A stretch of 64,000 nt of DNA from Spartobacteria bacterium (GTDB lineage: Bacteria > Verrucomicrobiota > Verrucomicrobiia > Chthoniobacterales > UBA10450), in the NCBI GenBank assembly GCA_003167365.1, contig PMTM01000004.1, positions 1 through 64,000 of the forward strand, given 5' to 3'. The notes beneath the pieces were generated by a model. That model did no database searches. It had not been told where the DNA came from and saw only the letters and a program-made list of their open reading frames with translations. The translations under genes were made by a program, and so were the position numbers. Below, in pieces: positions 14,078 through 54,613 of the stretch (within the stretch, counting starts at the first letter, position 1; each line of letters starts with the position of its first letter).

Positions 14078-15220
14078 TCAGATAGCTTGTAGAATCGACA
14101 GGGCATGATCGATGTCATCATGGGTATTATATAGATGGGGAGAAAAGCGCAGTTTTCCTGCGCGAGAAGCGATATAGACCCCGCTTTTCCTGAGGCTTTC
14201 ATAGATCTCGCTGTTTCGCTTGGAGTCCTTGTGAGAAACGAACACAAGTGTAGAGCGAGCGGCGCCCTCGCGCGGACTGAGCAGGTCATACCTTTTTGGG
14301 TCCAATCCGCCAATCAGCCGCGAGACAAGACTGTTGTTGTGCGTCTCGATTCGATCAATTCCTTGTTCCAGAAGATACTCGACCGCGGCAGCCCACGGTT
14401 TGAAATTAAAGAAGTTGGCCGTGCCGAAGACGTCATAGCGACGAGCGCCAAGATCCGATCGCAAAGTGACTCGAGGCAGTTCCTTCGCTAAATCCTCAGG
14501 GGTTAACATTGCCAACCAGTAGGCTTGGTTGTAGTCGAGCGATTCGCGCAGTTCCGGCCGGATCCAGCAAAACCCGGTGCCATACGGACCGCATAACCAC
14601 TTAAACCCGACATTGGTGATTGCATCAACTGCGATGCGCGAAACATCGAATGCTCGCGCGCCCAATGCTTGAGAGCAATTGATAACGAATGTCACACCTT
14701 TTGCCCGGCATAGTTCGCCGAGTTTCTGCACATCCACAGCATGGCCGTTGAAGGAATGCACATACGTCACGCAAAGTAGTTTGGTGGACTTTGTGAGATG
14801 AGATTCTAACTCCTCAGCTTGCAGAACTTCTTGTCGCGGCTCAACAAAACGGACATTGATCCCTCGCTTTTCCAATCCGAGCCATGGAAAAAGATCGGCC
14901 GGGAAATCCCCAGCGACCACGAGAACTTCATCGCCAGCCTTCCAGCGAATGCCATTTGCCAATAGGTGCAAACCGTAGGAAGCGCTGTTGCCCAGGATAA
15001 TATCTTCGGGCGGAGTCCCAATCAGTTTGCCAAGAGCGTGCCTTAGTCGAAGAGGAACGTCGAAGAACAATTCGTCTCGCAGAAGGTGAAGCGCGGTTTT
15101 CCACGCGATCGCTTCGTGCGCTTCGTCGACGGCGGCGTTCGGCAAGGGCCCTTGATGAGCGCAATTCAGCCACACTTTACCCTCGACCCGGGCGAAGTCT
15201 TGTGAGTAGTCCTTCGTCAT
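14078..15220 (-). CDS. Class V aminotransferase-like PLP protein
   Basis: The product is 380 residues of PLP fold type I, close in outline to cysteine desulfurase, isopenicillin-epimerase-like and kynureninase-like proteins. Visible parts are WLNCAHQGPLPN, ILGNSASYGLHLLANG, and the Schiff-base lysine Lys207 in NVGFKWLCGPYGTG. The motif that normally gives the PLP pyridine Asp (DxxQ) reads VINCSQALG here, so the Asp is Asn181. This would weaken classic PLP chemistry and marks a divergent or altered enzyme. It lies between two fragments of an ALDH 3-prime end, so it may have entered the ALDH region later. The substrate is unknown. Confidence 0.8.
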   Translation of the reverse strand: MTKDYSQDFARVEGKVWLNCAHQGPLPNAAVDEAHEAIAWKTALHLLRDELFFDVPLRLRHALGKLIGTPPEDIILGNSASYGLHLLANGIRWKAGDEVLVVAGDFPADLFPWLGLEKRGINVRFVEPRQEVLQAEELESHLTKSTKLLCVTYVHSFNGHAVDVQKLGELCRAKGVTFVINCSQALGARAFDVSRIAVDAITNVGFKWLCGPYGTGFCWIRPELRESLDYNQAYWLAMLTPEDLAKELPRVTLRSDLGARRYDVFGTANFFNFKPWAAAVEYLLEQGIDRIETHNNSLVSRLIGGLDPKRYDLLSPREGAARSTLVFVSHKDSKRNSEIYESLRKSGVYIASRAGKLRFSPHLYNTHDDIDHALSILQAI

Positions 15221-15252
15221 ACTCTGTCTCAGTTTGGCGACTCTAAGCTTAT

Positions 15253-15297
15253 CTACTTTGCAATGCAGACGTTCTTGGGCTCGGTGAAGAAGCCCGC
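15253..15297 (-). pseudogene. Second remnant of the aldehyde dehydrogenase 3-prime end
   Basis: Encodes GFFTEPKNVCIAK and a stop, the last 13 residues of the ALDH. It lies between the aminotransferase start and the complete ALDH gene. The following 15298-15374 is non-coding. Confidence 0.75.
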
Positions 15298-15374: not shown

Positions 15375-16832
15375 TCATTTCGCTATACAAACATTCTTGG
15401 GCTCAGTGAAAAATCTTAAGGCTTCGTCGCCGCCTTCGCGGCCGACACCGCTTGCTTTCATGCCGCCGAAAGGGACGCGCAGATCGCGCACGAGCCAGCA
15501 GTTTACCCAGACTGTGCCGGTGTGAATGCGTTCTGCGACGCGATGGGCGCGATTTAGGTTTTGCGTCCAGACGCTCGAGGCCAGGCCGTAATCGGTGTCA
15601 TTGGCGTATCCAATCACTTCCTCTTCGCTGTCGAACGGCGTGATGGTGATGACCGGGCCGAAGATTTCTTCGCGATTGACGCGACATGACACCGGCAAAT
15701 CGGTGATGACCGTTGGCGGAAAGAAGTAACCCGACTGACAACGCTCGTTGATCGACTTCGGCGCCGAACCGCCGAGGGCGGTGACACCGCCTTCCTGTTG
15801 CGCAAGATCGACATAGAACTTCACCTTATCGAGTTGCGTCTTCGAAACGATCGCGCCCTGATCGGTTTTCTCGTCGAGCGGATCGCCAACTTTTAACTGC
15901 GATGCTTTTTCGACAAAGCGTTTAACAAAATCCTGATACACCGGCCGCTCGACGAACACGCGCGAACCGCACAGACAGACCTGGCCCTGGTTCGCGAACG
16001 AAGAGCGCACGCTGCCGGCGATGGCGGCGTCGAGGTCGGCGTCGGCGAAAATAATGTTCGGATTTTTGCCGCCGAGCTCGAGCGAAACTTTCTTGAACAT
16101 CGGCGCGCACGTCTCCGCCACTTTGCGGCCGGTCACCGTTCCGCCGGTGAACGAGATCGTGCTAATCTTTGGATGTGCCGTGATCGCAGCGCCGACGTTC
16201 GGCCCGGTGCCGTGCACGATGTTGAGCACGCCGTTCGGCAATCCCGCTTCAGCACAAATTTCGCACAGCAGAAACGCCGTCATCGGCGTCAGCTCACTCG
16301 GCTTGGCGATGGCGGTGTTGCCGCACGCGATGGCGGGCGCGATTTTCCAACTCAACAAATAGAGAGGAAGATTCCACGGAGAAATCAATCCCGCGATGCC
16401 GCGCGGCTGGCGCAGCGTGTAATTGAACGCGACGCCGTCGGTGATGTGCGCTTCGGACTCAGTGTGCAGGATTGCGGTGGCGAAAAAGCGGAAGTTGGCG
16501 ACGGCGCGCGGAATGTCGAGCGAACGCGCGAGCGAGAGCGGCTTGCCCGTGTCGATCGACTCGGCTCGCGCGAACTTCTCCAGATCGCGTTCGATCAAAT
16601 CGGCAATGCGCAGAAGGATGTCCGATCGCTCCGCTGTTGTTTTTTTCGACCAATCCGCGAAGGCCGCCTCGGCGGCCCCAACGGCGAGATCGACATCGCG
16701 GCTGTCGCTGTCCGCGACTTGCGAATACGGCTTCCCCGTCGCCGGTTCGATGTTGTCGATATATTTACCGCCGACCGGCTCAACGAATTGGCCGTCGATG
16801 AAGTTTCTAATTTGGAGTGGTTCAGAGCGCAC
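15375..16832 (-). CDS. 2-Aminomuconate 6-semialdehyde dehydrogenase (ALDH8A1-like)
   Basis: The product is 485 residues from the GTG at 16832. It is an NAD-dependent dehydrogenase. Features are GLISPWNLPLYLLSWKIAPA, the cofactor motif FTGGTVTGRKV, the general base Glu in LELGGKNPN, and the catalytic Cys in FANQGQVCLCGSR, a form close to human ALDH8A1 (FANQGEICLCTSR). ALDH8A1 and bacterial AmnC oxidise 2-aminomuconate semialdehyde in the kynurenine route, which fits kmo and kynU nearby. The in-frame region up to 17003 is repeat-derived and would give an N-terminus unlike the family; the GTG start gives the normal length. Two fragments of its 3-prime end lie downstream. Confidence 0.87.
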   Translation of the reverse strand: MRSEPLQIRNFIDGQFVEPVGGKYIDNIEPATGKPYSQVADSDSRDVDLAVGAAEAAFADWSKKTTAERSDILLRIADLIERDLEKFARAESIDTGKPLSLARSLDIPRAVANFRFFATAILHTESEAHITDGVAFNYTLRQPRGIAGLISPWNLPLYLLSWKIAPAIACGNTAIAKPSELTPMTAFLLCEICAEAGLPNGVLNIVHGTGPNVGAAITAHPKISTISFTGGTVTGRKVAETCAPMFKKVSLELGGKNPNIIFADADLDAAIAGSVRSSFANQGQVCLCGSRVFVERPVYQDFVKRFVEKASQLKVGDPLDEKTDQGAIVSKTQLDKVKFYVDLAQQEGGVTALGGSAPKSINERCQSGYFFPPTVITDLPVSCRVNREEIFGPVITITPFDSEEEVIGYANDTDYGLASSVWTQNLNRAHRVAERIHTGTVWVNCWLVRDLRVPFGGMKASGVGREGGDEALRFFTEPKNVCIAK

Positions 16833-16984
16833 AGGTTGCGGAAGATTGTAACCGGCCAACCCGGGAGTTCCAACGTTGATCTCGTGACCGCCCGATCGCT
16901 CACCCGCTCCCCGAGCGGCTATGCAGTCTACCCAACGCCCTGCCACGCGCGTCGTATTCAACGCCGAACATCTAATGCAAAATA

Positions 16985-17047
16985 GTAGAGGCGGGTGTCT
17001 CACCCGCTTGTTTGAGCTTTTGCGGTCGCCGCGGCGACCGCCACTAC
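16985..17047. repeat. REPIN: two inverted GTAG-headed palindromes
   Basis: GTAG at 16985 leads into GCGGGTG-TCT-CACCCGC. The right half, GCGGTCGCCGCGGCGACCGC, ends in CTAC at 17044-17047. Total length is 63 bases. Confidence 0.75.
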
Positions 17048-22403: not shown

Positions 22404-23669
22404 TTAAGTAACGGGCCGATAGGTGCCGGTGCCGACGAGGCGCTCGAACATGGGGGAAGCCATAAGCGTGGTGACGATGGCCATGATGACGAGCGTAGCG
22501 AAGAGAGCGGGCGAGATAATACCGCGCTGGAGTCCGATGTTGATGATGATGAGTTCCATCAATCCGCGCGCGTTCATCAATGTACCGATGCCGAGCGCTT
22601 CGCGATTTGAAATGCCAGTCACGCGCGCGGCCAGCCAGCAGGCAACGCCTTTGCCAAGGATGGCGGCGGTGAGCACCGCGCCGCACATCAACCAAAGGAA
22701 ACTGGAGTTGAGCAAGCCGATCTTCGTATTCAATCCGGAGTAGGTGAAGAACAACGGAAGCAGTAGCGCGACGGTGAGCGGCTGAATGCGCGCGATCAAA
22801 TCGCGCGTGACAATCCCGCGCGGCATCGCCGCTCCCATAACAAACGCGCCGAAGACCGCGTGCAGTCCGATGAGATCGGTGAACCAGGCGCCGAGCGCCA
22901 TCAACGCCAGGATGAGGACAAGGCCAGCCTCGGTCAGTGCGCCGTCTTTCGTCAGTCGACCTTGCGCCTTTGACAACAGAGGCCGGACGACCAGAAGAGT
23001 AAACGCGACGTAAGCCAATCCGCCGACGATGTTGAGCAGCGCGTGGCTCCAATTGTTGTCTAGACTAGCGAGCACGACCGCGAGCAAGCACCAGGCGGTT
23101 GCATCGTTAATCGCGCCCGCGCCCAGCGCTACGGTTCCGATGGTCGTTCCAGTAAGCTTCTTAAAATGGATAATGCGCGCGAGCACCGGGAGCGCGGTGA
23201 TGCACATGGACGCGCCGAGAAAAAGCATTCCTTCCGGAAGTGAAGTGCTCTTTGGAAACAATTCCGTGTAGTGAAAGAAAAACCAAGCCAGCCCAGCCCC
23301 AAACGCGAGTGGCGTTAGAATGCCGGCGAGCGACACGGCGATCGAGCTCTTCAGCTTGCGCCGCACGATGTCGATGCGGAAATCCATTCCGACTACGAAC
23401 ATGTAAAGCGCCAAACCCAGCTGCGCGGCCGGAAACAGATAGCTTTGTGCGTCACGCGTTGTCTGGGTTTTGTCCCAGGGAAACAGCCACTGTTGCCACT
23501 CCGGCAGGAGCAGACCGAAAAGTGATGGCCCGAGCAACACTCCGGCCAGCATCTCGGCGACAACTTGCGGCTGGCCAAATCGGAGCGCGATGGCCCCGAT
23601 CACGCGGCAAAAAAGCAGGATGACTGCGATTTGCAGGAAAAAGTGAACGGCCAATTGCAGATTGTTCAT
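22404..23669 (-). CDS. CPA2 family cation/proton antiporter
   Basis: The product is 421 residues with about 12 membrane segments. It has the family start (CRVIGAIALRFGQPQVVAEM, LAGVLLGPSLFG), the core helix ALGAGAINDATAWCLLAVV and a late NARGLMELIIINIGLQ. The core carries Asn-Asp (ND) rather than the Asp-Asp of electrogenic NapA-type exchangers. In known members this suggests an electroneutral or K+-type antiporter. There is no C-terminal RCK/TrkA-N domain, so it is not a full KefB/C. It probably acts in pH or monovalent cation homeostasis. Confidence 0.87.
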   Translation of the reverse strand: MNNLQLAVHFFLQIAVILLFCRVIGAIALRFGQPQVVAEMLAGVLLGPSLFGLLLPEWQQWLFPWDKTQTTRDAQSYLFPAAQLGLALYMFVVGMDFRIDIVRRKLKSSIAVSLAGILTPLAFGAGLAWFFFHYTELFPKSTSLPEGMLFLGASMCITALPVLARIIHFKKLTGTTIGTVALGAGAINDATAWCLLAVVLASLDNNWSHALLNIVGGLAYVAFTLLVVRPLLSKAQGRLTKDGALTEAGLVLILALMALGAWFTDLIGLHAVFGAFVMGAAMPRGIVTRDLIARIQPLTVALLLPLFFTYSGLNTKIGLLNSSFLWLMCGAVLTAAILGKGVACWLAARVTGISNREALGIGTLMNARGLMELIIINIGLQRGIISPALFATLVIMAIVTTLMASPMFERLVGTGTYRPVT

Positions 23670-23760: not shown

Positions 23761-24714
23761 TTAAGAGTCGGCGCTGAAAGAATGCACGTCGTGCTCGCGG
23801 CAACGCTGCGTCTCGATCGTCAAATGCACCAACTCCTCGTGCTCTCGAAGCAGCTCTCGATAGTTGTCGGAGCTCTTCGGCTCATGCGCGACGATTGAGA
23901 CAATGGCGGCGAATTTTCCCATCCCCACTTGCCAGACGTGCAAATCGGTCACGAGCGAATCGCCGTCGCTTTCCACGGCTCGACGGATCTCTTCCGGCAG
24001 ATCGGATGAAGGTGGCGTGCAATCGAGCAGAATCCCGCTGGTGTCGCGCAACAGAGTGTAAGCCCAGGAAAAAACAACAGCGCTGCCGACAACTCCCACG
24101 ACTGGATCAAGCCACGTCCAGCCAAAAAATTTGCCGCCAGTGAGCGCGACAATCGCAAGCACGCTGGTGAACGCATCGGCCAGGACGTGGAGATACGCTG
24201 CACGCAAATTCAAATCGTGATGATGATGGCCACCGTGACTGTGTCCTTCGTGATGATGGTGATCATCCTTGAGCAGGAGCGCACAACTCAAATTCACCGC
24301 CAATCCCAGGCACGCGATTCCAATCGCTTCATTGAATTGGATACTCAGCGGAGCGAACATTCGGCGCACCGATTCGCCGGCCATTAACAGCGCGATGATC
24401 GAAAGCACCACCGCGCTGGTGAACCCGCCGAGTACGCCGATTTTTCCCGTGCCAAAACTGAAGCGGACATTCGCCGCGTACTGTCGAGTGAAGTAATACG
24501 CGAGCGCAGCAATGAGGAATGCGATGACATGCGTGCTCATGTGCCAGCCATCGGCCAACAGCGCCATCGAATGCGAGACGAGGCCGACGGCGATTTCGAG
24601 CACCATCATCACCGCGGTGATGCCGATCACGATGCGCGTGCGCCGCTCCGCGCCCGAGAAATCAGGAACGAAATCGTGCGCATGCCGGAAATGTGAATGA
24701 TCCGATCGATGCAT
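23761..24714 (-). CDS. dmeF: CDF divalent metal exporter, DmeF type
   Basis: The product is 317 residues. The start HRSDHSHFRHAHDFVPDFSG, then the first metal-site helix GLVSHSMALLADGWHMSTHV, is characteristic of DmeF-type cation diffusion facilitators for Co2+ and Ni2+. The second metal site is in YLHVLADAFTSVLAI. A His-rich loop (KDDHHHHEGHSHGGHHHHD) lies between membrane segments 4 and 5. The cytoplasmic tail has VTDLHVWQVGMGKFAAIV. It exports metal from the cytoplasm using the proton gradient. The ATG at 24714 gives the family N-terminus. A duplicated piece of its own 3-prime end lies upstream at 24754-24866. Confidence 0.88.
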   Translation of the reverse strand: MHRSDHSHFRHAHDFVPDFSGAERRTRIVIGITAVMMVLEIAVGLVSHSMALLADGWHMSTHVIAFLIAALAYYFTRQYAANVRFSFGTGKIGVLGGFTSAVVLSIIALLMAGESVRRMFAPLSIQFNEAIGIACLGLAVNLSCALLLKDDHHHHEGHSHGGHHHHDLNLRAAYLHVLADAFTSVLAIVALTGGKFFGWTWLDPVVGVVGSAVVFSWAYTLLRDTSGILLDCTPPSSDLPEEIRRAVESDGDSLVTDLHVWQVGMGKFAAIVSIVAHEPKSSDNYRELLREHEELVHLTIETQRCREHDVHSFSADS

Positions 24715-24753
24715 ATTGAAGAGATAAAGCGTTTCGCCGCGTCCGCAAACTTC

Positions 24754-24866
24754 AGTTCCTCGTGCTCTCGAAGCAGCTCTCGATAATTGTTGGAAGTCTT
24801 CGGTTGATGCGCAACGATGGAGACGATGGCAGCGAATTTTCCTGTTCCTACTTGCCAGACGTGCAG
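24754..24866 (-). pseudogene. Duplicated fragment of the dmeF 3-prime end
   Basis: Aligns without gaps to 23831-23943 inside dmeF. By hand count 17 of 113 positions differ (about 85 percent identity). It encodes LHVWQVGTGKFAAIVSIVAH and then QPKTSNNYRELLREHEEL, matching the cytoplasmic tail. No other part of a second dmeF gene remains between dmeF and czcD. Confidence 0.85.
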
Positions 24867-24895
24867 AAAGGTAGATGTAGTTTTCGCCGATAATC

Positions 24896-25798
24896 ATGCC
24901 TCATAATCACGACCATTCCCACGCTCCATCGAATTTCCATCGTGCGTTCGCCGTCGGTGTGGCTCTGAACATTGCCTATGTCCTCGTGCAAGTTGTCTTC
25001 GGAATTTTCGGCCACTCGCTCGCGTTGCTCGCGGATGCGGGACACAACTTCGGTGATGTGCTCGGGCTGATTCTCGCATGGGGCGCGAGTTATCTGGCGA
25101 AACGTCCTTCGACCGCGCGGCGCACTTACGGGTGGCGGCGCACGTCGATCATGGCCGCGTTGCTCAATGCGATTTTTCTGCTCGTCACAGTCGGCGCGAT
25201 CACATGGGAGGCCGTGCGGCGCTTCGGTCACCGCGATATTGTCGATGCAAACATTGTCATCTGGGTGGCTGCGGTCGGCATCGTGCTCAATGGCGCCACC
25301 GCCTGGCTTTTTATGTCGGGTCGCAAGAAAGATTTGAATATCCGCGGCGCATTCATGCACATGGCGGCGGACGCGGCGATCTCTGCCGGCGTCGTCGTTG
25401 CCGGCCTGGCCATTAGTTTCACGGGATGGTTTTGGCTCGATCCAGCAACGAGCATTATCATCAACATCATCATCGTGATCGGCACGTTGGGTTTGCTTCG
25501 CGAATCTTTCGATCTTGCGCTCGATGCAGTCCCAGCGGGGGTCGATCTTCTCAAGGTAAGAAAATATTTATCCGAATTGCCCGACGTTACTGCGGTGCAC
25601 GACCTGCATATTTGGGCGATGAGCACGACCGAGATCGCGCTCACCGCACATCTTGTCATGCCGGACCGATCTGGCGGCGACGCCTTCCTGCACGAAATCT
25701 GCGATCATTTGCATCACGTGTTTGGGATCGAACATTCAACTCTTCAAATTGAACAAAACGCTCAGTCGTGTGCGCTCGCGCCTGACGCCGTCGATTAG
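24896..25798 (+). CDS. czcD: CDF zinc/cobalt/cadmium exporter, CzcD type
   Basis: The product is 300 residues. His-rich start (PHNHDHSHAPSNFH), six membrane segments, metal-site motifs FGHSLALLADAGHNFGDVLG and GAFMHMAADAAISAGVVVAG, and the cytoplasmic domain with VTAVHDLHIWAMSTTEIALT. The HxxxD and DxxxD pairs that bind Zn2+ are present. It is divergent from dmeF, with about 180 bases between starts including the dmeF fragment. Together with dmeF and the CsoR-like regulator it makes a metal-export block. Confidence 0.9.
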   Translation: MPHNHDHSHAPSNFHRAFAVGVALNIAYVLVQVVFGIFGHSLALLADAGHNFGDVLGLILAWGASYLAKRPSTARRTYGWRRTSIMAALLNAIFLLVTVGAITWEAVRRFGHRDIVDANIVIWVAAVGIVLNGATAWLFMSGRKKDLNIRGAFMHMAADAAISAGVVVAGLAISFTGWFWLDPATSIIINIIIVIGTLGLLRESFDLALDAVPAGVDLLKVRKYLSELPDVTAVHDLHIWAMSTTEIALTAHLVMPDRSGGDAFLHEICDHLHHVFGIEHSTLQIEQNAQSCALAPDAVD

Positions 25799-25833: not shown

Positions 25834-26535
25834 TTACTTTCCGTCGCTTTTCTCAATCTCTTTCCCTCCACCCTTTTTCCAAAGATGAAAGGTGTAGGTG
25901 AAGACGATGTAGCCAAACAGATCGTGTTCGGATCCATTGTTGACGTAGAGGGCGGGATTCATCTGGAAATCGGGGGTGATGTTCCAAGTGAGGCCGATCG
26001 TGGATGAGTTTTCGGAGCCGCTCTGAAAATCAATCTGCGCCCGCCAGGTTTTGTTGAAGTCGTAGGCATAACCGAGGATCGCCTCATTCTTATAGTCGGC
26101 ATGAATGATCCCGACGATGAACTTATTATGTTCGGTATAGTAACCGGCTTCGAGGTACGGCTGCGGATCGACCCCGAGATGCGGCGACCAGTTTATAAAT
26201 CCGACCGAGAGCAGATACGGTTCTTTTTGAATTAGTCCGAATTCGGTCCCAAAAATCCAATCACCCGGCTTGAATCCACGAAAGACGGCGAACTCCGCCC
26301 ATTTCGTAAGGCCCATCTCGGCCTGCAATTCATAAGGATTAGCGATGCGTTTGTCTTCGATTTGGAGGCTCAAAGATAAATCGCCTTCGTCTTGAAGGTC
26401 TGGCGTCACGATTTGGCTGAGGCCTTTCGTTGTGGCGAATGCTGGCGTGGCGAAAGCACCAAAGCTTGTCACAAGGATCACTGCGGACTTTGGAAGCGTA
26501 AGTCTTTGGAAAAGAAAAGAGAAAATTCGACCCAT
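25834..26535 (-). CDS. Secreted outer-membrane-type beta protein
   Basis: The product is 233 residues. A signal peptide (LPKSAVILVTSFGAFATPAFA) is followed by alternating beta strands with aromatic ends: YLLSVGFINWSPHLGV, YLEAGYYTEHNKFIVG, WRAQIDFQSGSENSSTIG and LFGYIVFTYTFHLWKK. This suits a small outer-membrane barrel. It is downstream of the csoR-like gene on the same strand with an 83-base gap, so it may be controlled by metal. No family name can be assigned. The ATG at 26535 begins the signal peptide. Confidence 0.7.
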   Translation of the reverse strand: MGRIFSFLFQRLTLPKSAVILVTSFGAFATPAFATTKGLSQIVTPDLQDEGDLSLSLQIEDKRIANPYELQAEMGLTKWAEFAVFRGFKPGDWIFGTEFGLIQKEPYLLSVGFINWSPHLGVDPQPYLEAGYYTEHNKFIVGIIHADYKNEAILGYAYDFNKTWRAQIDFQSGSENSSTIGLTWNITPDFQMNPALYVNNGSEHDLFGYIVFTYTFHLWKKGGGKEIEKSDGK

Positions 26536-26618
26536 TGTGCGTAGTCTCTGATCGTGCTCGGGTTTCACAGCGTGACGAATTCCGTGCGCAAGTTTCAATG
26601 GTGAAATCCTAACTGCAC

Positions 26619-26909
26619 CTACTCGACATAACGCTCCAGAACCGTGAGCAACTCGCGCAACTTCCGTCGGCCCTCCGCCAGTGTGTGTGCTTCCTCGATG
26701 CAGTGACGAGTGTGCGAATGAATCAGTTTTTCGGCGAGCGATTTCAGCCCGCGCCGGGCGGAGACGATCTGGAGGAGGATCTCTACACATTCGTGGTCCT
26801 CGTCGATCATTCGTTCGACGGCATTGAGCTGGCCGACGATCTTGCGCACCCGGATGACTGAGGCGCGGCGTTCTTCTTCGGGATGCCGGTGGATGGATTT
26901 CCTAGTCAC
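26619..26909 (-). CDS. CsoR/RcnR-family metal-sensing repressor
   Basis: The product is 96 residues, all helical (DUF156). Helix 1 has RVRKIVGQLNAVERMIDED. The ligands in the X-Y-Z pattern are Cys41 (HECVEIL), His66 and Cys70 (LIHSHTRHCIEE), which is the Cu(I)-type C-H-C set of CsoR rather than the H-C-H-H of RcnR. Apo-repressors of this family bind GC-rich inverted repeats and release them on metal binding. An inverted repeat at 26963-26982 lies in the divergent promoter region. The likely targets are itself, the outer-membrane gene and the plus-strand gene at 26990. Confidence 0.88.
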   Translation of the reverse strand: MTRKSIHRHPEEERRASVIRVRKIVGQLNAVERMIDEDHECVEILLQIVSARRGLKSLAEKLIHSHTRHCIEEAHTLAEGRRKLRELLTVLERYVE

Positions 26910-44840: not shown

Positions 44841-46862
44841 ATGAAGTCTGGCAACTTCTTTAGCGAGCTGAAGCGGCGCAACGTTTACAAAGTTGCCGTC
44901 GCCTATGCGATTGTCGGCTGGCTCCTCGTTCAAATTGCCACGCAGGTTTTTCCATTCCTGGAAATTCCCAACTGGGTTGTAAGACTAGTCATCGCAATTG
45001 TCGTAATCGGATTTCCGATCGCTCTCGTCATCGCGTGGGCTTTTGAAGCGACTCCGGAAGGAATCAAGCGAACGGAGATTGCCGATGCGATGCCGGCGGC
45101 GGCGACCGGACACAAGAAGCACGCTTGGATCTACATCGTTGTGATCTGTGGCGCGATTTCAGTGGCGTTGTTTTCCCTCGGCCGTTATACCGCCGGAAAC
45201 AAAACCGTATCGTCTAACGAGTTTTCGAACAAATCGATTGCCGTTCTGCCATTCGAAAATTTGAGCAGTGACAAAGAGAACGCATATTTCGCCGAGGGAA
45301 TTCAGGATGAAATCCTGACACGACTGGCAAAGATCGGTGCGCTCAAAGTGATCTCGCGAACATCGACTTCACATTTCGCGAGCAGTCCGCAAAACCTTCC
45401 CGAAATTGCGCGACAACTCGGTGTCGCGAACATTTTGGAAGGCACTGTGCAAAAGGCGCGTGACGCCGTGCACGTGAATGTGCAATTGATCCGCGCGGCC
45501 ACGGACGATCATCTTTGGGCGGAAAGCTACGATCGAAACCTGGACGACATCTTTGGAGTTGAAAAAGAAGTGGCGCAAAGCATCGCTTCGGCGCTGAATG
45601 CGAAGCTAACCGGTGCGGAAGAGAAAGCTCTCGCGGATAAACCTACGACTAACCTCGCAGCTTATGGCGCTTATCTCCGAGGTAATACGCAGTTTTGGGA
45701 GATCAACGAACAATCGCTCCTGGCGGCCGAGAAATCTTATAAAGAGGCGGTTCGCCTTGATTCTCAGTTTGCCATCGCCTGGGCTGCGCTCGCCCGAGTC
45801 GACGCTGTTCTCTTTTTGATCGACGACACAACGCCGGCACGACACGCAGCCGCAGAACAAGCCCTGAACGAAGCTGAGCATTTACAGCCGCAGGCTGCGG
45901 AAACAAAAGTAGCACGCGGTTACTTTGCCTACCTCGTGCAACATGACTTAAAAGGAACGGTCGATCTCATGGAGCAGGCGCATCGAACTTGGCCAAACAA
46001 CGCCGAGGTTTTGCAGCTCCTGGCATTTGCGGCGGCTCGTCTTGGCGAGTGGAAGAAGTCCGACGATGCCTTGGATCAGGCCGTCGTTTTGAATCCAAGA
46101 GATCTCGCAACGCGGAGATGGGCTTTGAATAACCGCTTTGATGCGCGTGATTTTGTCACGGCACGCCGTATGACCGACGACGCGCTGCAAGTTTGGCCGG
46201 ATGAACCAAACCTACTGGGCTACAAAGCTCAGACCTACCAGGCTTCAGGCCAGCTCGATGAAGCACAGGCGCTCGTAGATCGGATAAAGCCGCGCTTGAA
46301 AGATTATGATGCCGTCTCCACCATTTGGTATCAGGCCAAGCTGCGACGCGATCCGGCGGCAGCCATTAAGATCCTCGAGCCGCTCGCTCGTCCGACCGAC
46401 TCAGGATTCGATTGGATGTTTAGCGCCGCCCAGCTCGCCGATCTTCAAGCTCTCGCTGGAGATAACGCTTCGTCGCAATCCAACTTCCGCCAGGTCCGCG
46501 ACCGCGCCAGCGCGCTTGCGCAGGAGCAACCTGACAACGTGCGCTTCCTCAGTCCCCTGGCTCAGGCCTTAAGTCACCTTGGTGAAAAGAAGGCGACTTT
46601 TCGTGTTATCGACCGAGCGATGGAATTGCGCGCCGGAGATCTGCGCAACCAACCCAGCTGGGAGGAGGAACGCGCCCGCGTCCTGGCGTTGTTCGGCGAA
46701 AAGGATCAGGCGATCGAGATCCTGCAACGCCTGCTGCGGACGCGCTATTCCGGTTGGGCCTTTATGCCGCTCACACCAGCCTTGCTCCGACTCGATCCGG
46801 ATTTTGATCCGCTGCGCGGCAATCCGCGCTTTGAAAAACTTTGCCAGGAAAAAACGAAGTGA
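44841..46862 (+). CDS. Membrane TolB-N/TPR protein, paralog 1 of 5
   Basis: The product is 673 residues. The N-terminal module FFSELKRRNVYKVAVAYAIV carries a membrane segment, followed by a second span (WVVRLVIAIVVIGFPIALVI) and AFEATPEGIKRTE, then a third hydrophobic span (YIVVICGAISVALFSLG). Next is a TolB-N/FlgO-like domain from KSIAVLPFENLSSDKENAYF through LWAESYDRNLDDIFGVEKEV (about residues 130-260), then TPR helices to the end. The last motif is FDPLRGNPRFEKL. Proteins with this layout usually end in the cytoplasm or periplasm as scaffolds; a catalytic site is not seen. The stop overlaps the next start by GTGA. Confidence 0.85.
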   Translation: MKSGNFFSELKRRNVYKVAVAYAIVGWLLVQIATQVFPFLEIPNWVVRLVIAIVVIGFPIALVIAWAFEATPEGIKRTEIADAMPAAATGHKKHAWIYIVVICGAISVALFSLGRYTAGNKTVSSNEFSNKSIAVLPFENLSSDKENAYFAEGIQDEILTRLAKIGALKVISRTSTSHFASSPQNLPEIARQLGVANILEGTVQKARDAVHVNVQLIRAATDDHLWAESYDRNLDDIFGVEKEVAQSIASALNAKLTGAEEKALADKPTTNLAAYGAYLRGNTQFWEINEQSLLAAEKSYKEAVRLDSQFAIAWAALARVDAVLFLIDDTTPARHAAAEQALNEAEHLQPQAAETKVARGYFAYLVQHDLKGTVDLMEQAHRTWPNNAEVLQLLAFAAARLGEWKKSDDALDQAVVLNPRDLATRRWALNNRFDARDFVTARRMTDDALQVWPDEPNLLGYKAQTYQASGQLDEAQALVDRIKPRLKDYDAVSTIWYQAKLRRDPAAAIKILEPLARPTDSGFDWMFSAAQLADLQALAGDNASSQSNFRQVRDRASALAQEQPDNVRFLSPLAQALSHLGEKKATFRVIDRAMELRAGDLRNQPSWEEERARVLALFGEKDQAIEILQRLLRTRYSGWAFMPLTPALLRLDPDFDPLRGNPRFEKLCQEKTK

Positions 46863-48943
46863 GCGACAAACCTTCCTTCTTTTCCGAGTTGAAGCGGCGT
46901 AACGTTTATAAAGTCGCGGTCGCGTACGCAGTCGTCGGCTGGTTAATCGCTCAGATTGCAACGCAGATATTTCCGTTCTTGGAAATCCCGAACTGGGTTG
47001 TGCGTTTGGTTATCGTGTTGATTGCGATTGGCTTTCCAATTGCGCTCGTAATCGCATGGGCGTTCGAAGCAACGCCGCAAGGGATCAAACGAACCGAAAT
47101 TGCTGACGCAATGCCGTCAACGCCGGCAAAAAAGAGACGCGCGTGGATTTATGTTGTGATCGTGGGCGCGGCGTTTTCGATCGGATTGTTTTTTATCGGT
47201 CGCTACACGGCGCAGAGAATCCAGACGCCTCGACAGAGCGAGGCGGCTACAGTTTCGCAAAAATCGATCGCGGTGTTGCCGTTCGAAAATCTGAGCGATG
47301 ACAAAAACGCTGCTTATTTCACCGACGGCATTCAGGACGAAATCCTGACCAAGCTCGCAAGCATCGCCGATTTGAAAGTGATCTCGCGCACGTCGACCGC
47401 GAAATACAAGAGCAAGCCCGAAGATCTAAAGACCGTTTCGCAACAGCTCGGCGTCGCGAATGTTCTCGAAGGCTCGGTCCAAAAATCCGGCGACAAGGTT
47501 CGCGTCAACGTCCAGCTGATCGATGCGCGCGCAGATTCGCATCTATGGGCCAAGACCTACGACCGCGATCTTGCGGATGTCTTTGCGATCCAAACCGAAG
47601 TGGCGCAGGAAATCGCGGATTCACTGCAGGCGAAGCTTTCGCCGGCGGAGGCAAATACCGTCGCCCGCGCGCCGACCGAGAATACCGAAGCGTACGATTT
47701 CTTTCTCAAAGGTGAGTTCGAAGAACGCGAAGCTGAGAGCTCCCTTAAACCTGAAGTCTACGACCAGGCTGCTAGTTGGTATCGGCGGGCCATCGCGCAG
47801 GATCCGAAATTTGCCCTGGCCATTGCTCGTTTCGTTAACAGTCGAATGCAGCGTCACTGGTTCGTCGAGCCTCTATCCGAGAAAGAGCTGGAAGAATTAC
47901 GACAAACCGCGCAGGACGCGGTCAAACTGGCACCTACGCTAGCAGAAGCACATGTGTCCCTCGGAATAGTCTATTACTTTGGTCATCGGCAGTATGACGA
48001 AGCTCTTGGTGAGTTCCGTCGCGCCATTGAGCTACAGCCTAATAATGCCCGTGCTTTGGAATACAGTGGCTATGTCCATCGTCGGCAAGGCCGATGGCAG
48101 GAATGTTTGTCTGAACTAAGCAAGGCTGAAGAACAAGATCCGCGGGAAGCAGGTGTGCCGGGAAACTTCTCCACCAGCCATACCCAACTGCGCATGTGGA
48201 AAGAGGCGGAGCGTTATGCCGCACGCTCTCTCGCGCTCAATCCACACACCGTAGACGGGATGCGCGCGTTGCTCATCAGCTACCTGAATGGACGAGGAGA
48301 TTTCAAAGGCGCACGCCGTCTGCTTGAGACCTTCCCGCCTGATGCCAACCTCTTGGCCGATGCAGCCCATATGACTGTGGAAGGTCCTCTCGGTCTCCGG
48401 GCTTACGTATCCGTCCTGGAAGGAAACTATGCAGCCGCGCTCCAACTCTTTGAGAATCAAAGTAATGGTCTGGGAGAAAACGCTCGTCTCTCAGCTAGAG
48501 GTACCGTCCATATCCTTGCGGGTGATGCCGCTGGAGCCAGGGGCGAAATGGAAAAAGCACGTCGCTTGGTGGAAGCCAGGCTACAGGAACGGCCATCGGA
48601 TCTTGATAGCATGATTCAACTAAGCTGGATTTATCTTGGCCTCGATCGCAAGAGCGACGCTCTTAAGTTAGCCCAGAGAGCAGTGGACTTTCTTCCTCCG
48701 GAGAAGGATGCGCTAGTCGGCACCTTCACTTTATATAACGTGGCGGCAATCAAGGCACGCACCGGCGATGCTACCGGCGCGATCGATATTCTTCGGCGAT
48801 TACTTGCCATGCCGGCTGGTCACGAAGTCTCGGTGATTAGCCTGAAAACTAATCCCGTCTGGGCTCCGATTCGAAACGATCCAGGCTTTCAGGAATTGCT
48901 GACAGGTAAGGAGCTAGTTGGACCCAGTGAACAGCTGAGATGA
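46859..48943 (+). CDS. Membrane TolB-N/TPR protein, paralog 2 of 5
   Basis: The product is 694 residues from the GTG at 46859 (GTGA overlap with paralog 1). The N-terminal module is the same type as paralog 1 (IATQIFPFLEIPNWVVRLVI, AFEATPQGIKRTEIADAMP). The linker before the TolB-N domain contains TPRQSEAAT, which is coded by a REP palindrome (47226-47250). The TolB-N domain runs KSIAVLPFENLSDDKNAAYF to FAIQTEVAQEIADSLQAKLS. The TPR part has nine or more helical pairs (ALGEFRRAIELQPNNARALE, ALKLAQRAVDFLPPEKDALV). It ends NPVWAPIRNDPGFQELL. The stop overlaps the next start by ATGA. Confidence 0.85.
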   Translation: MSDKPSFFSELKRRNVYKVAVAYAVVGWLIAQIATQIFPFLEIPNWVVRLVIVLIAIGFPIALVIAWAFEATPQGIKRTEIADAMPSTPAKKRRAWIYVVIVGAAFSIGLFFIGRYTAQRIQTPRQSEAATVSQKSIAVLPFENLSDDKNAAYFTDGIQDEILTKLASIADLKVISRTSTAKYKSKPEDLKTVSQQLGVANVLEGSVQKSGDKVRVNVQLIDARADSHLWAKTYDRDLADVFAIQTEVAQEIADSLQAKLSPAEANTVARAPTENTEAYDFFLKGEFEEREAESSLKPEVYDQAASWYRRAIAQDPKFALAIARFVNSRMQRHWFVEPLSEKELEELRQTAQDAVKLAPTLAEAHVSLGIVYYFGHRQYDEALGEFRRAIELQPNNARALEYSGYVHRRQGRWQECLSELSKAEEQDPREAGVPGNFSTSHTQLRMWKEAERYAARSLALNPHTVDGMRALLISYLNGRGDFKGARRLLETFPPDANLLADAAHMTVEGPLGLRAYVSVLEGNYAAALQLFENQSNGLGENARLSARGTVHILAGDAAGARGEMEKARRLVEARLQERPSDLDSMIQLSWIYLGLDRKSDALKLAQRAVDFLPPEKDALVGTFTLYNVAAIKARTGDATGAIDILRRLLAMPAGHEVSVISLKTNPVWAPIRNDPGFQELLTGKELVGPSEQLR
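47226..47250 (-). repeat. REP palindrome inside TPR paralog 2
   Basis: CGCCTCGACAGAGCGAGGCG then GCTAC; on the minus strand it is headed by GTAG. Identical bases occur at 44562-44586 (inverted) and 53203-53226. In frame, it encodes PRQSEAAT. Confidence 0.85.
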
Positions 48944-50784
48944 AGCCGCGCAATTTCTTCGCCGAGCTGAAGCGGCGCAATGTTTACAAGGTCGCGGTCG
49001 CGTATGCGGTCGTAGCGTGGCTATTGATTCAAGCGGCGTCGATCTTGTTTCCCACTTTCGAAGCGCCGCCGTGGGTGATGAAGGTTTTCGTGATCGTCAT
49101 CCTTCTCGGATTTCCGGCCGCGCTTATTTTATCATGGGCTTTCGAGATTACGCCGGAAGGAATCAAGCTGGAGTCGGAAATAGCGCCTAACCAATCCATC
49201 ACCCGCCGAACCGGACGAAGGATCGTCGGAATTACGATTGCGCTAGCCGTGATCGCGGCCGGTTTGATGATTTTCCAAATCTTGCGCCCGAAGCCAACTG
49301 CTTCTGGCGATGCTGCGATCAGCTCGAGCGCGACACCGATTCCGGGCAAGTCGATCGCGATATTGCCTTTCACAGACCTCTCTCCCAAGCACGACCAGGA
49401 GTCTTTTTCCGAAGGGATGGCGGAGGAAATCCTCAACGCGCTCGCGCGGATTAAGAACCTCAAGGTCGTGGGGCGCGCTTCGTCGTTTCACTATAAAGGC
49501 AAGGACGTCGCGCTGGAAAAAGTCGGAACCGATCTCGGGGTGGCGCACATTCTGGAAGGCTCCGTGCGCAACCAGGGCGAACAGCTTCGCATCACGACCA
49601 CCCTCCTGCGCACCTCTGACGGCGTGCAGGAGTGGTCAAACACCTACGATGGCAAACTCGCGGATGTCTTTAATCTGCAGGAATCCTGTGCCCACGATAT
49701 TGCCACGCAGTTAAACGTCGTCCTCGGTGAGAACGGCCAGCAACGACTGGTCGATAAGACGACCGATAACGCCGAAGCCTATGCGTTGTTTATCGAAGCC
49801 CAGTCTATGGTGAACGCCCGGGTCGGCGATAACCTTCCCCGCGCCATCTCCAAGCTGGAGAAGGTTACCACTCTCGATCCAAAGTTTGCGCGCGCCTGGG
49901 CCAAGCTCGCCATCGCTCACGCCGTTCTGCCGCAGTACGTCAGCGGAAGTGACTGGCCAACAAACTTGAACTTATCCGAGTCCGCCGCCCACCGTGCCAT
50001 CGCGCTCGATGCGGACGATGCCGAGGCCTACGTCGCGCTCAGCTATGTCGCTTTCTCGCGTCGTCGCTATGTCGAGATGGTGGCACCAGCCGCGCGCGCG
50101 GTGGCGTTGGAACCGGAGGATTTCACCGCCAATTATTGGACCGCTAACGAACTCGCGGCCACTGGTCGCTCGACCGAAGCGGAAGCCATGATTGATCAAG
50201 TCGTGGTTCGTGATCCTGCTAACGCTCTGGCTCTATATTATAAGTCTATGCTGCGCTTCCTGGCCGGCGACAACGCCGCGGCGACGAGTACGGCCAAGCG
50301 TGCCGAAGCCTTGGGTTTGCCCTTGGGCGGCCTGACCCTTGCCTCCATCTCTGCGACGAAGGGCGACTACGATCGCGGCGCCGAGCAAATGGCGCGAGCG
50401 CTTGTAGCCATGGGCACGACGTTTACCTCTGCCCAGTTGGAAAACATCTATCGCGGCGCCTATATGGGCGAAGCGCAACGCGCCGCGGCCTTGCAGGTGA
50501 TCGCGGCGCGACCGGACGATCAATACGTCTCGAGTATGCTGCTTAGGCTGGGTGAACCTGCGCGCTCCTTCGAGGATTTTGAGCACAGTTCGACTGGCCT
50601 CTCCGACGCCTACCTTAACTTCCTTTGGTATCCCGATGCCTGGGCGCGCAAGGCCCGACAAAGCCCGGCCTTCCAGGGTTTCGCCAAACGCATAGGGCTG
50701 GTCGACTACTGGAAGAAAAACCGCTGGCCGGACCTATGTTCGCCCACGCCTGAAAACGGCCCTGACGCGTTCATCTGCCGATGA
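48940..50784 (+). CDS. Membrane TolB-N/TPR protein, paralog 3 of 5
   Basis: The product is 614 residues. The N-terminal module is of the second subtype: FFAELKRRNVYKVAVAYAVV, AASILFPTFEAPPWVMKVFV, SWAFEITPEGIKLESEIAPN, then GIKLESEIAPNQSITRRTGR and a membrane span. The TolB-N domain is divergent (KSIAILPFTDLSPKHDQESF, then VVGRASSFHYKGKDVALEKV). TPRs follow. The C-terminus (DYWKKNRWPDLCSPTPENGP) differs from the DPLRG-type ends of paralogs 1, 4 and 5. It has no REP insertion. ATGA overlaps on both sides couple it to paralogs 2 and 4. Confidence 0.85.
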   Translation: MKPRNFFAELKRRNVYKVAVAYAVVAWLLIQAASILFPTFEAPPWVMKVFVIVILLGFPAALILSWAFEITPEGIKLESEIAPNQSITRRTGRRIVGITIALAVIAAGLMIFQILRPKPTASGDAAISSSATPIPGKSIAILPFTDLSPKHDQESFSEGMAEEILNALARIKNLKVVGRASSFHYKGKDVALEKVGTDLGVAHILEGSVRNQGEQLRITTTLLRTSDGVQEWSNTYDGKLADVFNLQESCAHDIATQLNVVLGENGQQRLVDKTTDNAEAYALFIEAQSMVNARVGDNLPRAISKLEKVTTLDPKFARAWAKLAIAHAVLPQYVSGSDWPTNLNLSESAAHRAIALDADDAEAYVALSYVAFSRRRYVEMVAPAARAVALEPEDFTANYWTANELAATGRSTEAEAMIDQVVVRDPANALALYYKSMLRFLAGDNAAATSTAKRAEALGLPLGGLTLASISATKGDYDRGAEQMARALVAMGTTFTSAQLENIYRGAYMGEAQRAAALQVIAARPDDQYVSSMLLRLGEPARSFEDFEHSSTGLSDAYLNFLWYPDAWARKARQSPAFQGFAKRIGLVDYWKKNRWPDLCSPTPENGPDAFICR

Positions 50785-52841
50785 ACTTCTTCGCCGAGTT
50801 GAAGCGCCGCAACGTTTACAAAGTCGCTGTCGCTTACGCAGTTGTCGCGTGGCTCACGATTCAAGCGGCATCGATTTTCCTTCCCGCATTCAATGCGCCG
50901 CCATGGGTGATGCAAATCGTCATCCTCATCCTTGTTGTTGGGTTCCCGATTGCGCTGGCGTTTTCCTGGGCGTTCGAGATCACGCCCGAAGGAATTGTGC
51001 GCGAATCGGAGGTGCAGACTGACAAATCGATCACCCATCATACTGGGCGCAAGCTTGTCGCCATCACCGCCGTGCTCGCGGTCATCGCCACCGGTCTGTT
51101 TGTCTTCCAATTCATTCGCGTAAGATCGACATCTCCATCTGCGGCGACGGTCACAAACAAATCGATCGCCGTGTTGCCCTTCGAAAACCTGAGTGAGGAA
51201 AAACAGAACGAATACTTTGCCGATGGTGTGCAGGATGAAATCCTGACTGATCTGGCCAAGATCGCGGACTTGAAGGTGATCAGCCGCACCAGCGTGATGC
51301 AATACAGGAGCGGAGTGGTGCGGAATCTGCGCGAGATCGGTCAGCAGCTCGGCGTAGCTCATTTGCTGGAAGGCAGCGTGCAACGCGTCGCCAATCGGGT
51401 GCGGGTAAATGCGCAATTGATCGACGCGAAGACTGATGCCCACCTTTGGGCGCAGACTTATGATCGCGATCTGGCCGATGTCTTTGCGATCCAAAGCGAG
51501 ATTGCCAAAGCCATCGCCGATCAACTGCAAGCCAGGCTGTCGCCTAACGAGAAAGCGGCGATTGAAAAGCCGCCCACCACAAACCTGGCTGCCTTCGACC
51601 TTTACAGCCGGGCGAAGACTCTTCTGCTTTCAATCGGTTTCAGCACTATTGATGAAAAAAACTTGCGGGAGGCCATTGAGCTTCTTGACCAGGCTGTTGC
51701 GCTCGATCCGGCGTTTTTCGAAGCCTACTGCCAACTAATCATAGCTCACGGGAAGTTTTATTCACTGAACTACGATCATTCTGTGGGACGGCTGGCTTCC
51801 GCCGAAGCTGCCCTCCAGGCGGTGACTCGTTTGCGGCCCGATGCCGGCGAAACGCATCTCGCGCGCGCGCAATATTTGTATTACGGGCACCGTGACTACT
51901 CCGGCGCCCTCGCTGAACTGGAGCAGGCGCGGCGAAGTTTAACGAACGATCCGCGGGTGTTCGAACTCACCGGCTACATCTTGCGCCGGCGCGGCCAATC
52001 GGACGAAGCCGTCCGCAATTTGGAAAGATCAGTCGAGCTGGATCCACGCAATTACTTCATCATGCAACAGCTCGCGCTCAGCTATCAACTTCTCCGCCGC
52101 TACCAGGAGGAAGCCGCCATGTATGATCGCGTATTGACCATTGTTCCAAAGGATGTCCCCACCAGAGTTCAGCGGGCCCTGGTCGATTTTTACTGGAAGG
52201 CTGATACCAAACCCCTGCACGATGCGATCGACTCAATTCTCGCAGAAGATCCCAGTGCAATCCCCGCCGCCGCCGATACTTGGTTTCTTTGCGCGCTAGC
52301 AGAACGCGATCCAACGGCGGCGAAGCGGGCGTTGGCGGCACTGAACCATACTGCTGCTTTTGGCGAAGGCGGCGTCTATTTGAGCGCCAGCTTTGGCGAA
52401 GGCTTGCTGGCGCGGGTTACCAAAGACGAAGGGAGCGCGCGCGACGCCTTCAACAAAGCCCGCCTCGAGCAGGACAAAATTTTGCAAGCGCAGCCAGATT
52501 CTGGACCTGCTCTTTGCGTGCTTGGTTTGATCGATGCCGCTATGGGAGGCAAAGAGTCTGCCTTGGTGGAAGGACGGCACGCGATCGAACTTCTTCCGGT
52601 AGAAAAAGACTCTGTCACTGGTAGCCTTATGATCCAGCTCTTCGCGATCATTGCAGCGTGGACAGGCGAGAAGGATCTGGCCGTGCACCAACTGGAACTT
52701 GGAGTCCGCGCTCCAGCCGCAGGAATTGTAGTTACTTACGGTGGATTAAAGTTGTTGCCTTTTTGGGACCCGCTCCGCGGCGATCCACGCTTCGAAAAAA
52801 TCGTCGCCTCTCTCGCGCCGAAAACGGGTGCGAAACCGTGA
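50781..52841 (+). CDS. Membrane TolB-N/TPR protein, paralog 4 of 5
   Basis: The product is 686 residues. Second-subtype N-terminus (AASIFLPAFNAPPWVMQIVI, AFEITPEGIVRESEVQTDKS). The TolB-N domain is KSIAVLPFENLSEEKQNEYF, DEILTDLAKIADLKVISRTS, LWAQTYDRDLADVFAIQSEI. The TPR region is long (SGALAELEQARRSLTNDPRV, SDEAVRNLERSVELDPRNYF). It ends LLPFWDPLRGDPRFEKIVAS. The linker (STSPSAATVTNK) has no REP. ATGA joins it to paralog 3 and GTGA to paralog 5. Confidence 0.85.
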   Translation: MNFFAELKRRNVYKVAVAYAVVAWLTIQAASIFLPAFNAPPWVMQIVILILVVGFPIALAFSWAFEITPEGIVRESEVQTDKSITHHTGRKLVAITAVLAVIATGLFVFQFIRVRSTSPSAATVTNKSIAVLPFENLSEEKQNEYFADGVQDEILTDLAKIADLKVISRTSVMQYRSGVVRNLREIGQQLGVAHLLEGSVQRVANRVRVNAQLIDAKTDAHLWAQTYDRDLADVFAIQSEIAKAIADQLQARLSPNEKAAIEKPPTTNLAAFDLYSRAKTLLLSIGFSTIDEKNLREAIELLDQAVALDPAFFEAYCQLIIAHGKFYSLNYDHSVGRLASAEAALQAVTRLRPDAGETHLARAQYLYYGHRDYSGALAELEQARRSLTNDPRVFELTGYILRRRGQSDEAVRNLERSVELDPRNYFIMQQLALSYQLLRRYQEEAAMYDRVLTIVPKDVPTRVQRALVDFYWKADTKPLHDAIDSILAEDPSAIPAAADTWFLCALAERDPTAAKRALAALNHTAAFGEGGVYLSASFGEGLLARVTKDEGSARDAFNKARLEQDKILQAQPDSGPALCVLGLIDAAMGGKESALVEGRHAIELLPVEKDSVTGSLMIQLFAIIAAWTGEKDLAVHQLELGVRAPAAGIVVTYGGLKLLPFWDPLRGDPRFEKIVASLAPKTGAKP

Positions 52842-54613
52842 AGATCGACAACTTCTTCGCCGAGCTCAAGCGGCGCAATGTTTACAAGGTCGCTGTCGCT
52901 TATGCGGTCGTGTCGTGGCTGTTGATTCAGGCGGCGTCGATTTTGTTGCCGACGTTCGAAGCGCCAGCCTGGGTGATGAAGGTGTTGGTTCTCGTCATCA
53001 TCTTCGGTTTTCCGATGGCGCTGATTTTTTCCTGGGCGTTTGAGATCACGCCGGAAGGAATCAAACTCGAATCCGAAATCGAGCCGAACAAATCGATCGC
53101 GCGACGGACCGGACGAAAGATTGTTGCCGTAACGATCGCTCTTGCTGTCGTCGCGGCCGGTCTCTTCGTGTATCAACTCGTGCGCTCGACACCGGCAGGC
53201 ATGCCTCGACAGAGCGAGGCGGCTACAGAAGTTCCGAACAAATCGATCGCAGTGCTGCCGTTCGACAATCTCAGTCGCGATCCGGACAATGCTTACTTTT
53301 GTGAAGGTGTGCAGGATGAAATCCTGACGCGACTGGCCAAGGTCGCCGATTTGAAAGTGATTTCGCGCACATCGACGCAACATTTCAAAAGCACGCCGGA
53401 CAACTTACCCCAGATCGCGAAGCAGCTCGGCGTCGCTCACATTGTCGAAGGCAGCGTCCAGAAAGCCAGCGATCAGGTGCGGGTGAACGTGCAGTTAATT
53501 AATGCTCTGACCGACGCGCATCTTTGGGCGGACACTTACGATCGTAAACTGACCGACATTTTCGCGGTCGAAAGCGAGATTGCGAAAACCATCGCGGAGA
53601 CGTTGCAAGCGAGGCTCACCGGCTCGGAGAAGAGCTCGATCGCGAAAACACCGACGGTGAATCCGGAAGCTTACGAGCTTTATCTCAAAGGCAGGTTCTT
53701 TGCGGAGAAGCGGACCGGCGCGGACTTGCGCAAATCAATCGAGTATTACGATCAAGCGATCGCAAAGGATCCTGGTTACCCGCTCGCTTATGTCGGCCTG
53801 GCTGATTCCCATCTGCTTCTTACCGCCTACGGCGCTATTTCTACGAAAGAGGCAGCTTCTCCCGCCAAAGCCGCTCTAAAGAAAGCGCTGGCCCTGGATG
53901 ATTCGCTGGCGCAGGCCCACGCATCATCGGGATTGCTTGCTAACCTCGAACTCGACCTCAACCGCGCGATTACCGAATTAGAGCGCGCGATTCAGCTAAA
54001 TCCGAATTATGCGACGGCGCACCATTGGATCGCACTTCCGTTGATGGCGATCGGCCAGTCTGATCGCGCGATTGTGGAAGGAAAACGCGCGATCGAGCTC
54101 GATCCGCTCTCGTTAATTTGCAACGCCGATCTCGCTTGGGTCTATTTTAATGCACGCCGCTACGACGAAACGGAGGCGCAGGCTCGCAAGACTTTGGAAA
54201 TGGACCCGCGTTTTTATGTGGCGCATTACTATCTCGGGGAAGCCCTTCAGTTTAAGGGGAAGCTCACTGACGCGACTGCCGAGTATCAGAAATCCTTCGA
54301 ATCAAATAACGATCCGTTCTCGCTCGCCATGCTCGGCCAGGCGTATGCTCGCCAGGGAAAAACCGACGAGGCGCGAAAGGTTCTCGCACGCCTGAGGGAA
54401 CAGGCAAAATCGCAATACGTCTCCCCTTATGCTTTCGCGGTTGTTCTTACTGCGTTAGGCGATAAGGCGCACGCGATCGACGAATTGGAGCATGGCTACG
54501 ACGACACCGGATTCTATATTTCTCTCATCAAAGTAGATCCGTTGTTCGACGATCTACGCGGTCAGCCGCGTTTCGACGCGCTCGTGCAAAAAATCGTAGC
54601 GCCAAAAAAGTAG
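52838..54613 (+). CDS. Membrane TolB-N/TPR protein, paralog 5 of 5
   Basis: The product is 591 residues from the GTG at 52838; a longer in-frame reading from 52658 would run inside paralog 4 and is rejected. Second-subtype N-terminus (AASILLPTFEAPAWVMKVLV, EIEPNKSIARRTGRKIVAVT). The linker contains MPRQSEAATE from a REP palindrome (53203-53226) at the same place as in paralog 2. TolB-N: KSIAVLPFDNLSRDPDNAYF, LWADTYDRKLTDIFAVESEI. TPRs such as LNRAITELERAIQLNPNYAT and SDRAIVEGKRAIELDPLSLI follow. It ends DPLFDDLRGQPRFDALVQKI. This is the last gene of the chain; 54614-54755 has no gene. Confidence 0.85.
   Translation: MKIDNFFAELKRRNVYKVAVAYAVVSWLLIQAASILLPTFEAPAWVMKVLVLVIIFGFPMALIFSWAFEITPEGIKLESEIEPNKSIARRTGRKIVAVTIALAVVAAGLFVYQLVRSTPAGMPRQSEAATEVPNKSIAVLPFDNLSRDPDNAYFCEGVQDEILTRLAKVADLKVISRTSTQHFKSTPDNLPQIAKQLGVAHIVEGSVQKASDQVRVNVQLINALTDAHLWADTYDRKLTDIFAVESEIAKTIAETLQARLTGSEKSSIAKTPTVNPEAYELYLKGRFFAEKRTGADLRKSIEYYDQAIAKDPGYPLAYVGLADSHLLLTAYGAISTKEAASPAKAALKKALALDDSLAQAHASSGLLANLELDLNRAITELERAIQLNPNYATAHHWIALPLMAIGQSDRAIVEGKRAIELDPLSLICNADLAWVYFNARRYDETEAQARKTLEMDPRFYVAHYYLGEALQFKGKLTDATAEYQKSFESNNDPFSLAMLGQAYARQGKTDEARKVLARLREQAKSQYVSPYAFAVVLTALGDKAHAIDELEHGYDDTGFYISLIKVDPLFDDLRGQPRFDALVQKIVAPKK
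53203..53226 (-). repeat. REP palindrome inside TPR paralog 5
   Basis: GCCTCGACAGAGCGAGGCGG then CTAC, identical to the copy in paralog 2. In frame, coding PRQSEAAT. Confidence 0.85.

Follow-up and report, generated by a model that had tools for sequence, protein, structure and literature searches.

A short dmeF segment lying between dmeF and a divergent CDF gene is probably the relic of a second dmeF, once functional and since mostly deleted, and the event it points to is most likely ordinary bacterial gene loss. The segment lies in a window, meaning the whole stretch of 64,000 nucleotides that was analysed here, at one end of a 206-kb contig (C23) of a Spartobacteria genome. Its homology, its reading frame and its junction with the dmeF leader can be read directly from the alignments, and the history proposed below is built on these and on the distribution of substitutions between the two copies.

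The putative dmeF remnant and its junctions

The match between the remnant and the intact gene, described in a first-pass annotation as 17 differences over 113 ungapped bases on the same strand, was reproduced exactly (Table 1). A repeat search returned the pair 23834–23949 and 24757–24872 at 85%, and chance is excluded because the blastn self-comparison of the contig gave the pair an E value of 1.2e-30. Read on the minus (coding) strand, the remnant corresponds to residues 258–294 of the 317 residues of DmeF (counting M as 1), in frame and without an internal stop. Its homology starts at 'LHVWQVG' and ends abruptly after 'REHEE(L)'. The first-pass annotation had called it a copy of the dmeF 3-prime end, which is right in that it comes from the C-terminal part of the gene but inexact because the final 22 residues and the stop codon are absent. 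The remnant has clear homology to part of a known gene, as gene remnants do, and with most of the gene missing it is too short for a working DmeF. No further dmeF segment was found in the 29 bases between the remnant and the start of the CDF gene, and searches of the genome itself (3.13 Mb, 24 contigs) found the dmeF tail in two copies only, with no third.

The intact DmeF scored 393.8 bits against its family model, above the curated cutoff of 250. Its start codon lies 181 bases from that of the divergent CDF gene, and the remnant takes up 113 of them. The 38-base dmeF leader aligns with the dmeF leaders of two relatives, L135 (genome G065) and L041, and this conservation extends right up to the remnant. 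Upstream of the leader the two relatives are still alike, whereas the window diverges and carries the dmeF tail; the tail is therefore joined directly to the native dmeF leader. The CDF gene on the other side occupies the slot of an NRAMP gene (PF01566, also divergent from dmeF) in G065, and among the genomes this slot holds an NRAMP gene, a CDF gene or nothing. Compared with the locus in relatives, the window carries the CDF gene, the Na+/H+ exchanger gene and other genes as extras; the exchanger gene is absent between dmeF and the DUF47 gene in L041, L136 and L139.

Table 1. Coordinates of the features discussed (window positions unless marked otherwise)
Feature	Position	Strand	Basis or remark
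Putative second-dmeF remnant, codons 258–294	24754..24866	-	In frame, no stop; alignment, repeat search, self-comparison
Intact-dmeF segment homologous to the remnant	23831..23943	-	Alignment
Intact dmeF, CDF family Co(II)/Ni(II) efflux transporter, 317 residues	23761..24714	-	NCBIfam NF033827
dmeF leader, conserved with L135 and L041	24715..24752	-	Alignment; remnant joined directly
Divergent second CDF transporter gene, czcD-like (our label)	24896..25798	+	TIGR01297 239.8 bits, PF01545, PF16916
Na+/H+ exchanger family gene	22404..23669	-	Between dmeF and the DUF47 gene in the window
ALDH 3'-end copy including stop codon	13968-14074		Intact ALDH at 15375-17003
Class-V aminotransferase gene	14078-15220		PF00266; separates the ALDH tail from the ALDH gene
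Methylmalonyl-CoA mutase gene	Contig 85031-86869 (L173:9031-10869)		Outside the window; tail copy at contig C23 87414-87575

The course of events proposed is as follows. The second dmeF, which we infer was once full length, would have stayed functional through much of the period after the copies parted, until one or more deletions removed most of its length. At one cut, codon 294 of the relic now meets the native leader of the intact dmeF; at the other, codon 258 is joined to the 5' flank of the divergent CDF gene, a gene that probably entered the slot in a related event. The piece that is left presumably has no function at present. It resembles the prokaryotic gene remnants and pseudogenes described as a known kind in PMC522871 and PMC2374718, where a non-functional fragment of a known gene lies in an intergenic gap after decay of a redundant or transferred copy. 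It differs from the cases as set out there in having its intact homologue directly beside it and in still reading in frame without a stop.

Divergence between the copies and its possible causes

The two copies differ at 3, 2 and 11 first, second and third codon positions, respectively, over 37 codons, and nine of the differing codons are synonymous and four non-synonymous; the probability of at least 11 of 16 differences falling at third positions by chance is 0.004. The distance between them is of the size found between genera. Over 111 bases, which are few, the remnant shares 95 identities with its own intact gene and 94 with L041, from another genus, and the intact gene shares 89 with L041. 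With L136 both copies share 90 identities and with L139 both share 88, so that the remnant is no closer than the intact gene to these loci, and no or hardly closer to L137 (over 70–77 bases). When the changes were polarised on five relatives, six fell on the remnant branch and seven on that of the intact gene, with three ambiguous. A remnant that had always been unconstrained would be expected to carry 15–24 changes, as estimated from the third-position changes of the intact gene, and the probability of six against 15 expected is 0.0076, or 0.07 when every ambiguous change is counted on the remnant branch. Because of the third-position bias and the lack of excess changes over the intact gene, the remnant probably evolved as coding DNA over much of the time after the separation; with the between-genus distance, these observations argue for a slice of a separate, once-functional dmeF rather than a freshly copied gene end.

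The first-pass annotation had taken the gene end itself to be duplicated, a view at odds with a piece that lacks the real 3' end and has diverged under coding constraint at a between-genus distance. A fresh partial duplication, in which only the 113-base piece was copied upstream and has drifted neutrally since, would account for the presence of that piece only and for its place beside the parent gene. We consider it very unlikely, as the differences are neither spread evenly over the codon positions nor found mainly on the copy, as expected of a recent partial tandem duplication, and the piece is closer to L041 than the intact gene is. An insertion that restores the 3' end of its target gene leaves the true 3' end behind in a displaced tail, found downstream of the intact gene on the far side of the insert. 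That origin was rejected, as the remnant is upstream, ends 22 residues short of the C-terminus and has no stop codon, and only the 38-base leader stands between it and the gene. Retention of the piece as a promoter or operator region common to the divergent dmeF and CDF genes is still less credible. The large share of the gap that it fills would suit such a role, but the conserved leader lies outside the piece, the piece is ordinary dmeF coding sequence, and no sigma-70-like site was found in 24600–25000, a search confined to the sigma-70-like type that says little with 0.4 sites expected by chance. An assembly artefact, which might be suspected as contigs of G064 and G065 end inside the same dmeF stretch, has next to no likelihood: the contig is 206 kb long, completeness and contamination of the genome are rated at 100% and 0.02%, and the copies differ at 15% of sites and are therefore not one sequence placed twice.

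The source of the second copy is weighed here within the relic explanation. Deletion between tandem copies, suggested earlier as a mechanism, is a live option, since this site most likely had a second dmeF that then lost most of its sequence. If the remnant is a relic, a tandem duplication is a marginally probable source of the second copy, and an allele arriving from a related lineage is a possible one of lower standing. The latter, distinct from tandem duplication, amounts to allele displacement: DNA of a related genus with dmeF, and perhaps with the CDF gene, would have integrated beside the resident dmeF, and one of the alleles would then have been mostly deleted. An example of a route is homology-facilitated illegitimate recombination, described for linear DNA that integrates by way of homology at one of its ends (PMC3240628); by our inference, such an event could place a homologous stretch next to the foreign DNA that it brings in. 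Displacement is consistent with a remnant-to-gene difference of about that between genera, with two other gene tails on the contig that show similar distances and third-position bias, and with the variable slot beside dmeF. Against it, no donor was identified, a remnant that is upstream and without the 3' end is not simply predicted by one-sided integration, an old tandem duplication gives the same distances, and the AU test does not separate the placements, and taken as a whole we regard it as rather doubtful. In the tail tree (35 sequences remaining after omission of duplicates, identical sequences and 12 named rows, including the broken L134, L149 and L159; 111 sites) the position of the remnant was not resolved, and the AU test rejected none of five topologies. 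In the tree of full-length proteins, built from 40 sequences that include some duplicates, the window DmeF groups with L041, L056 and L060 apart from the rest, with a support of 95.

dmeF loci and broken dmeF genes in relatives

Two arrangements recur among the 33 loci examined for dmeF neighbours (L041–L072 and L119). A ZIP gene is next after dmeF in 15 of them, nine of which also have a znuB-like gene next before it; markers of the window neighbourhood occur in three (L041, L056 and L060), and the remaining 15 show neither arrangement. The window neighbourhood runs MgtE, a gene like that at window 25834–26790, dmeF and DUF47. This order is complete in G022 and spread over two contigs in G065, and as far as the contigs reach, the DUF47 side is seen in L041 (G062) and the MgtE side in L060 (G064). 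The DUF47 and znuB–ZIP loci are not cleanly separate everywhere: in G058 (L058, L141) a homologue of the 25834–26790 gene lies about 3 kb upstream of a znuB-like–dmeF–ZIP arrangement. Both copies in the window appear nearest to the dmeF lineage of the MgtE–DUF47 locus. An origin of the remnant from the znuB–ZIP locus was rejected, as it is nearer to the dmeF genes of the DUF47 locus than to those of the ZIP locus. A search of the genome itself with the ZIP protein of G065 gave no match, a result that shows nothing by itself in a search without a positive control.

The dmeF C-terminus was used to search 83 genomes of the family, many of them incomplete (53–98%) and none other of the window's genus. 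It was matched in 35, and a second tail was found in G000 and G065 only. The first-pass annotation had held that plain gene loss would be shown if some relative had a second, complete dmeF here. No relative among these 83 partly incomplete genomes from other genera has two dmeF copies or a complete second dmeF at the window site, but a complete dmeF does occur in relatives at the znuB–ZIP site where G065 keeps a tail. The G065 stub (L134:8306-8413; the genome was also reached as G105) is a 36-residue dmeF tail, approximately residues 272–307, between the znuB-like and ZIP genes, and it is the end of a lost gene because relatives have a complete dmeF there; by this comparison it is plain gene loss. 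Like the putative remnant in the window, it is a C-terminal part of dmeF left after loss of the rest; G065 has its other dmeF elsewhere. It differs in lying at another locus and in reaching further toward the 3' end.

The dmeF gene is also damaged in other relatives. In the same family, approximately residues 73–162 are missing in G022 and 158–194 in G060, with a change of frame in both, and in G055, of the same order, the pieces stand in different frames with a gap between them. One stop was flagged in the dmeF of G003, but the gene is intact on reading. A possible N-terminal dmeF-like fragment (L073:4453-4608; residues 1–52, 48% identity) lies about 1.4 kb upstream of an intact dmeF. The dmeF of G065 at the DUF47 locus is split over two contig ends with 87 identical bases common to both; these bases suggest that the assembly branches at this point. 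In both G065 and G064, contigs (the end of L135, the start of L136 and the end of L137) break inside the dmeF tail.

Other gene tails on the contig

A tail search over the contig combined the blastn self-comparison with a tblastn search that used 143 open frames of 150 residues or more, and it found three tail copies beside an intact gene, those of ALDH, dmeF and methylmalonyl-CoA mutase, all C-terminal. The dmeF tail comes from the blastn comparison only; it lies inside the longest dmeF open frame and was dropped by the overlap filter in tblastn. The remaining repeats belong to tandem gene families, lie between genes or touch short open frames. Five homologous open frames of 614–700 residues stand in tandem at window 44841–54613, and five tandem homologous genes lie outside the window at contig 197268–203573, where several pairs are more alike C-terminally, as if homogenised.

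All three tails stand at a between-genus distance from their neighbours and differ from them largely at third positions (ALDH 12/16, dmeF 11/16, mutase 14/23). The ALDH stub matches its gene at 85 of 99 positions and 11 relatives at 79–85; nine of these are slightly nearer to the stub than to the gene, one ties and one is nearer to the gene. No second ALDH tail was found in the available flanks of these 11 relatives. The ALDH tail also has another short partial match at window 15245–15291, between the aminotransferase gene and ALDH. The mutase tail comprises the gene end and part of the 3' flank, repeated about 550 bases downstream beyond an opposite-strand open frame of 143 residues. It matches its gene at 79 of 102 positions and seven relatives at 73–84, five of these being nearer to the gene; by these identities the mutase stub looks like the more diverged copy of the two, unlike the ALDH case.

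The layouts do not bear out a common mechanism with the ALDH case, as first proposed for dmeF. Both the ALDH stub and the mutase stub are downstream of the gene and carry its stop codon, with another gene or open frame in between, a whole aminotransferase gene for ALDH, whereas the dmeF stub is upstream, has no stop and directly adjoins the leader. A common origin of the three tails as displaced homologues is possible. That they are scars of one recurrent process, in which genes are replaced or doubled by recombination with DNA of related genera and the displaced allele is left as a short C-terminal stub, seems to us improbable. The special role once suggested for 3' ends retains the observation that the three tails are C-terminal, but three cases prove no such preference. 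Two observations speak against it: the possible N-terminal fragment in L073, and a 120-base direct repeat at contig 147028–147147 and 148157–148276 (86% alike, outside the window) that covers the beginnings of two short open frames, 187 and 162 residues long.

The remnant by itself is an ordinary trace of gene loss, and it shows that a short tail next to a gene is not necessarily a local copy: tests of codon position and polarity can separate a decayed old homologue from a fresh duplicate. If the three tails did arise by the recurrent process, such stubs could be counted as a measure of between-genus recombination in these soil bacteria. For dmeF, the occurrence of more than one locus, repeated breakage and stubs illustrates the instability of this gene in the group.
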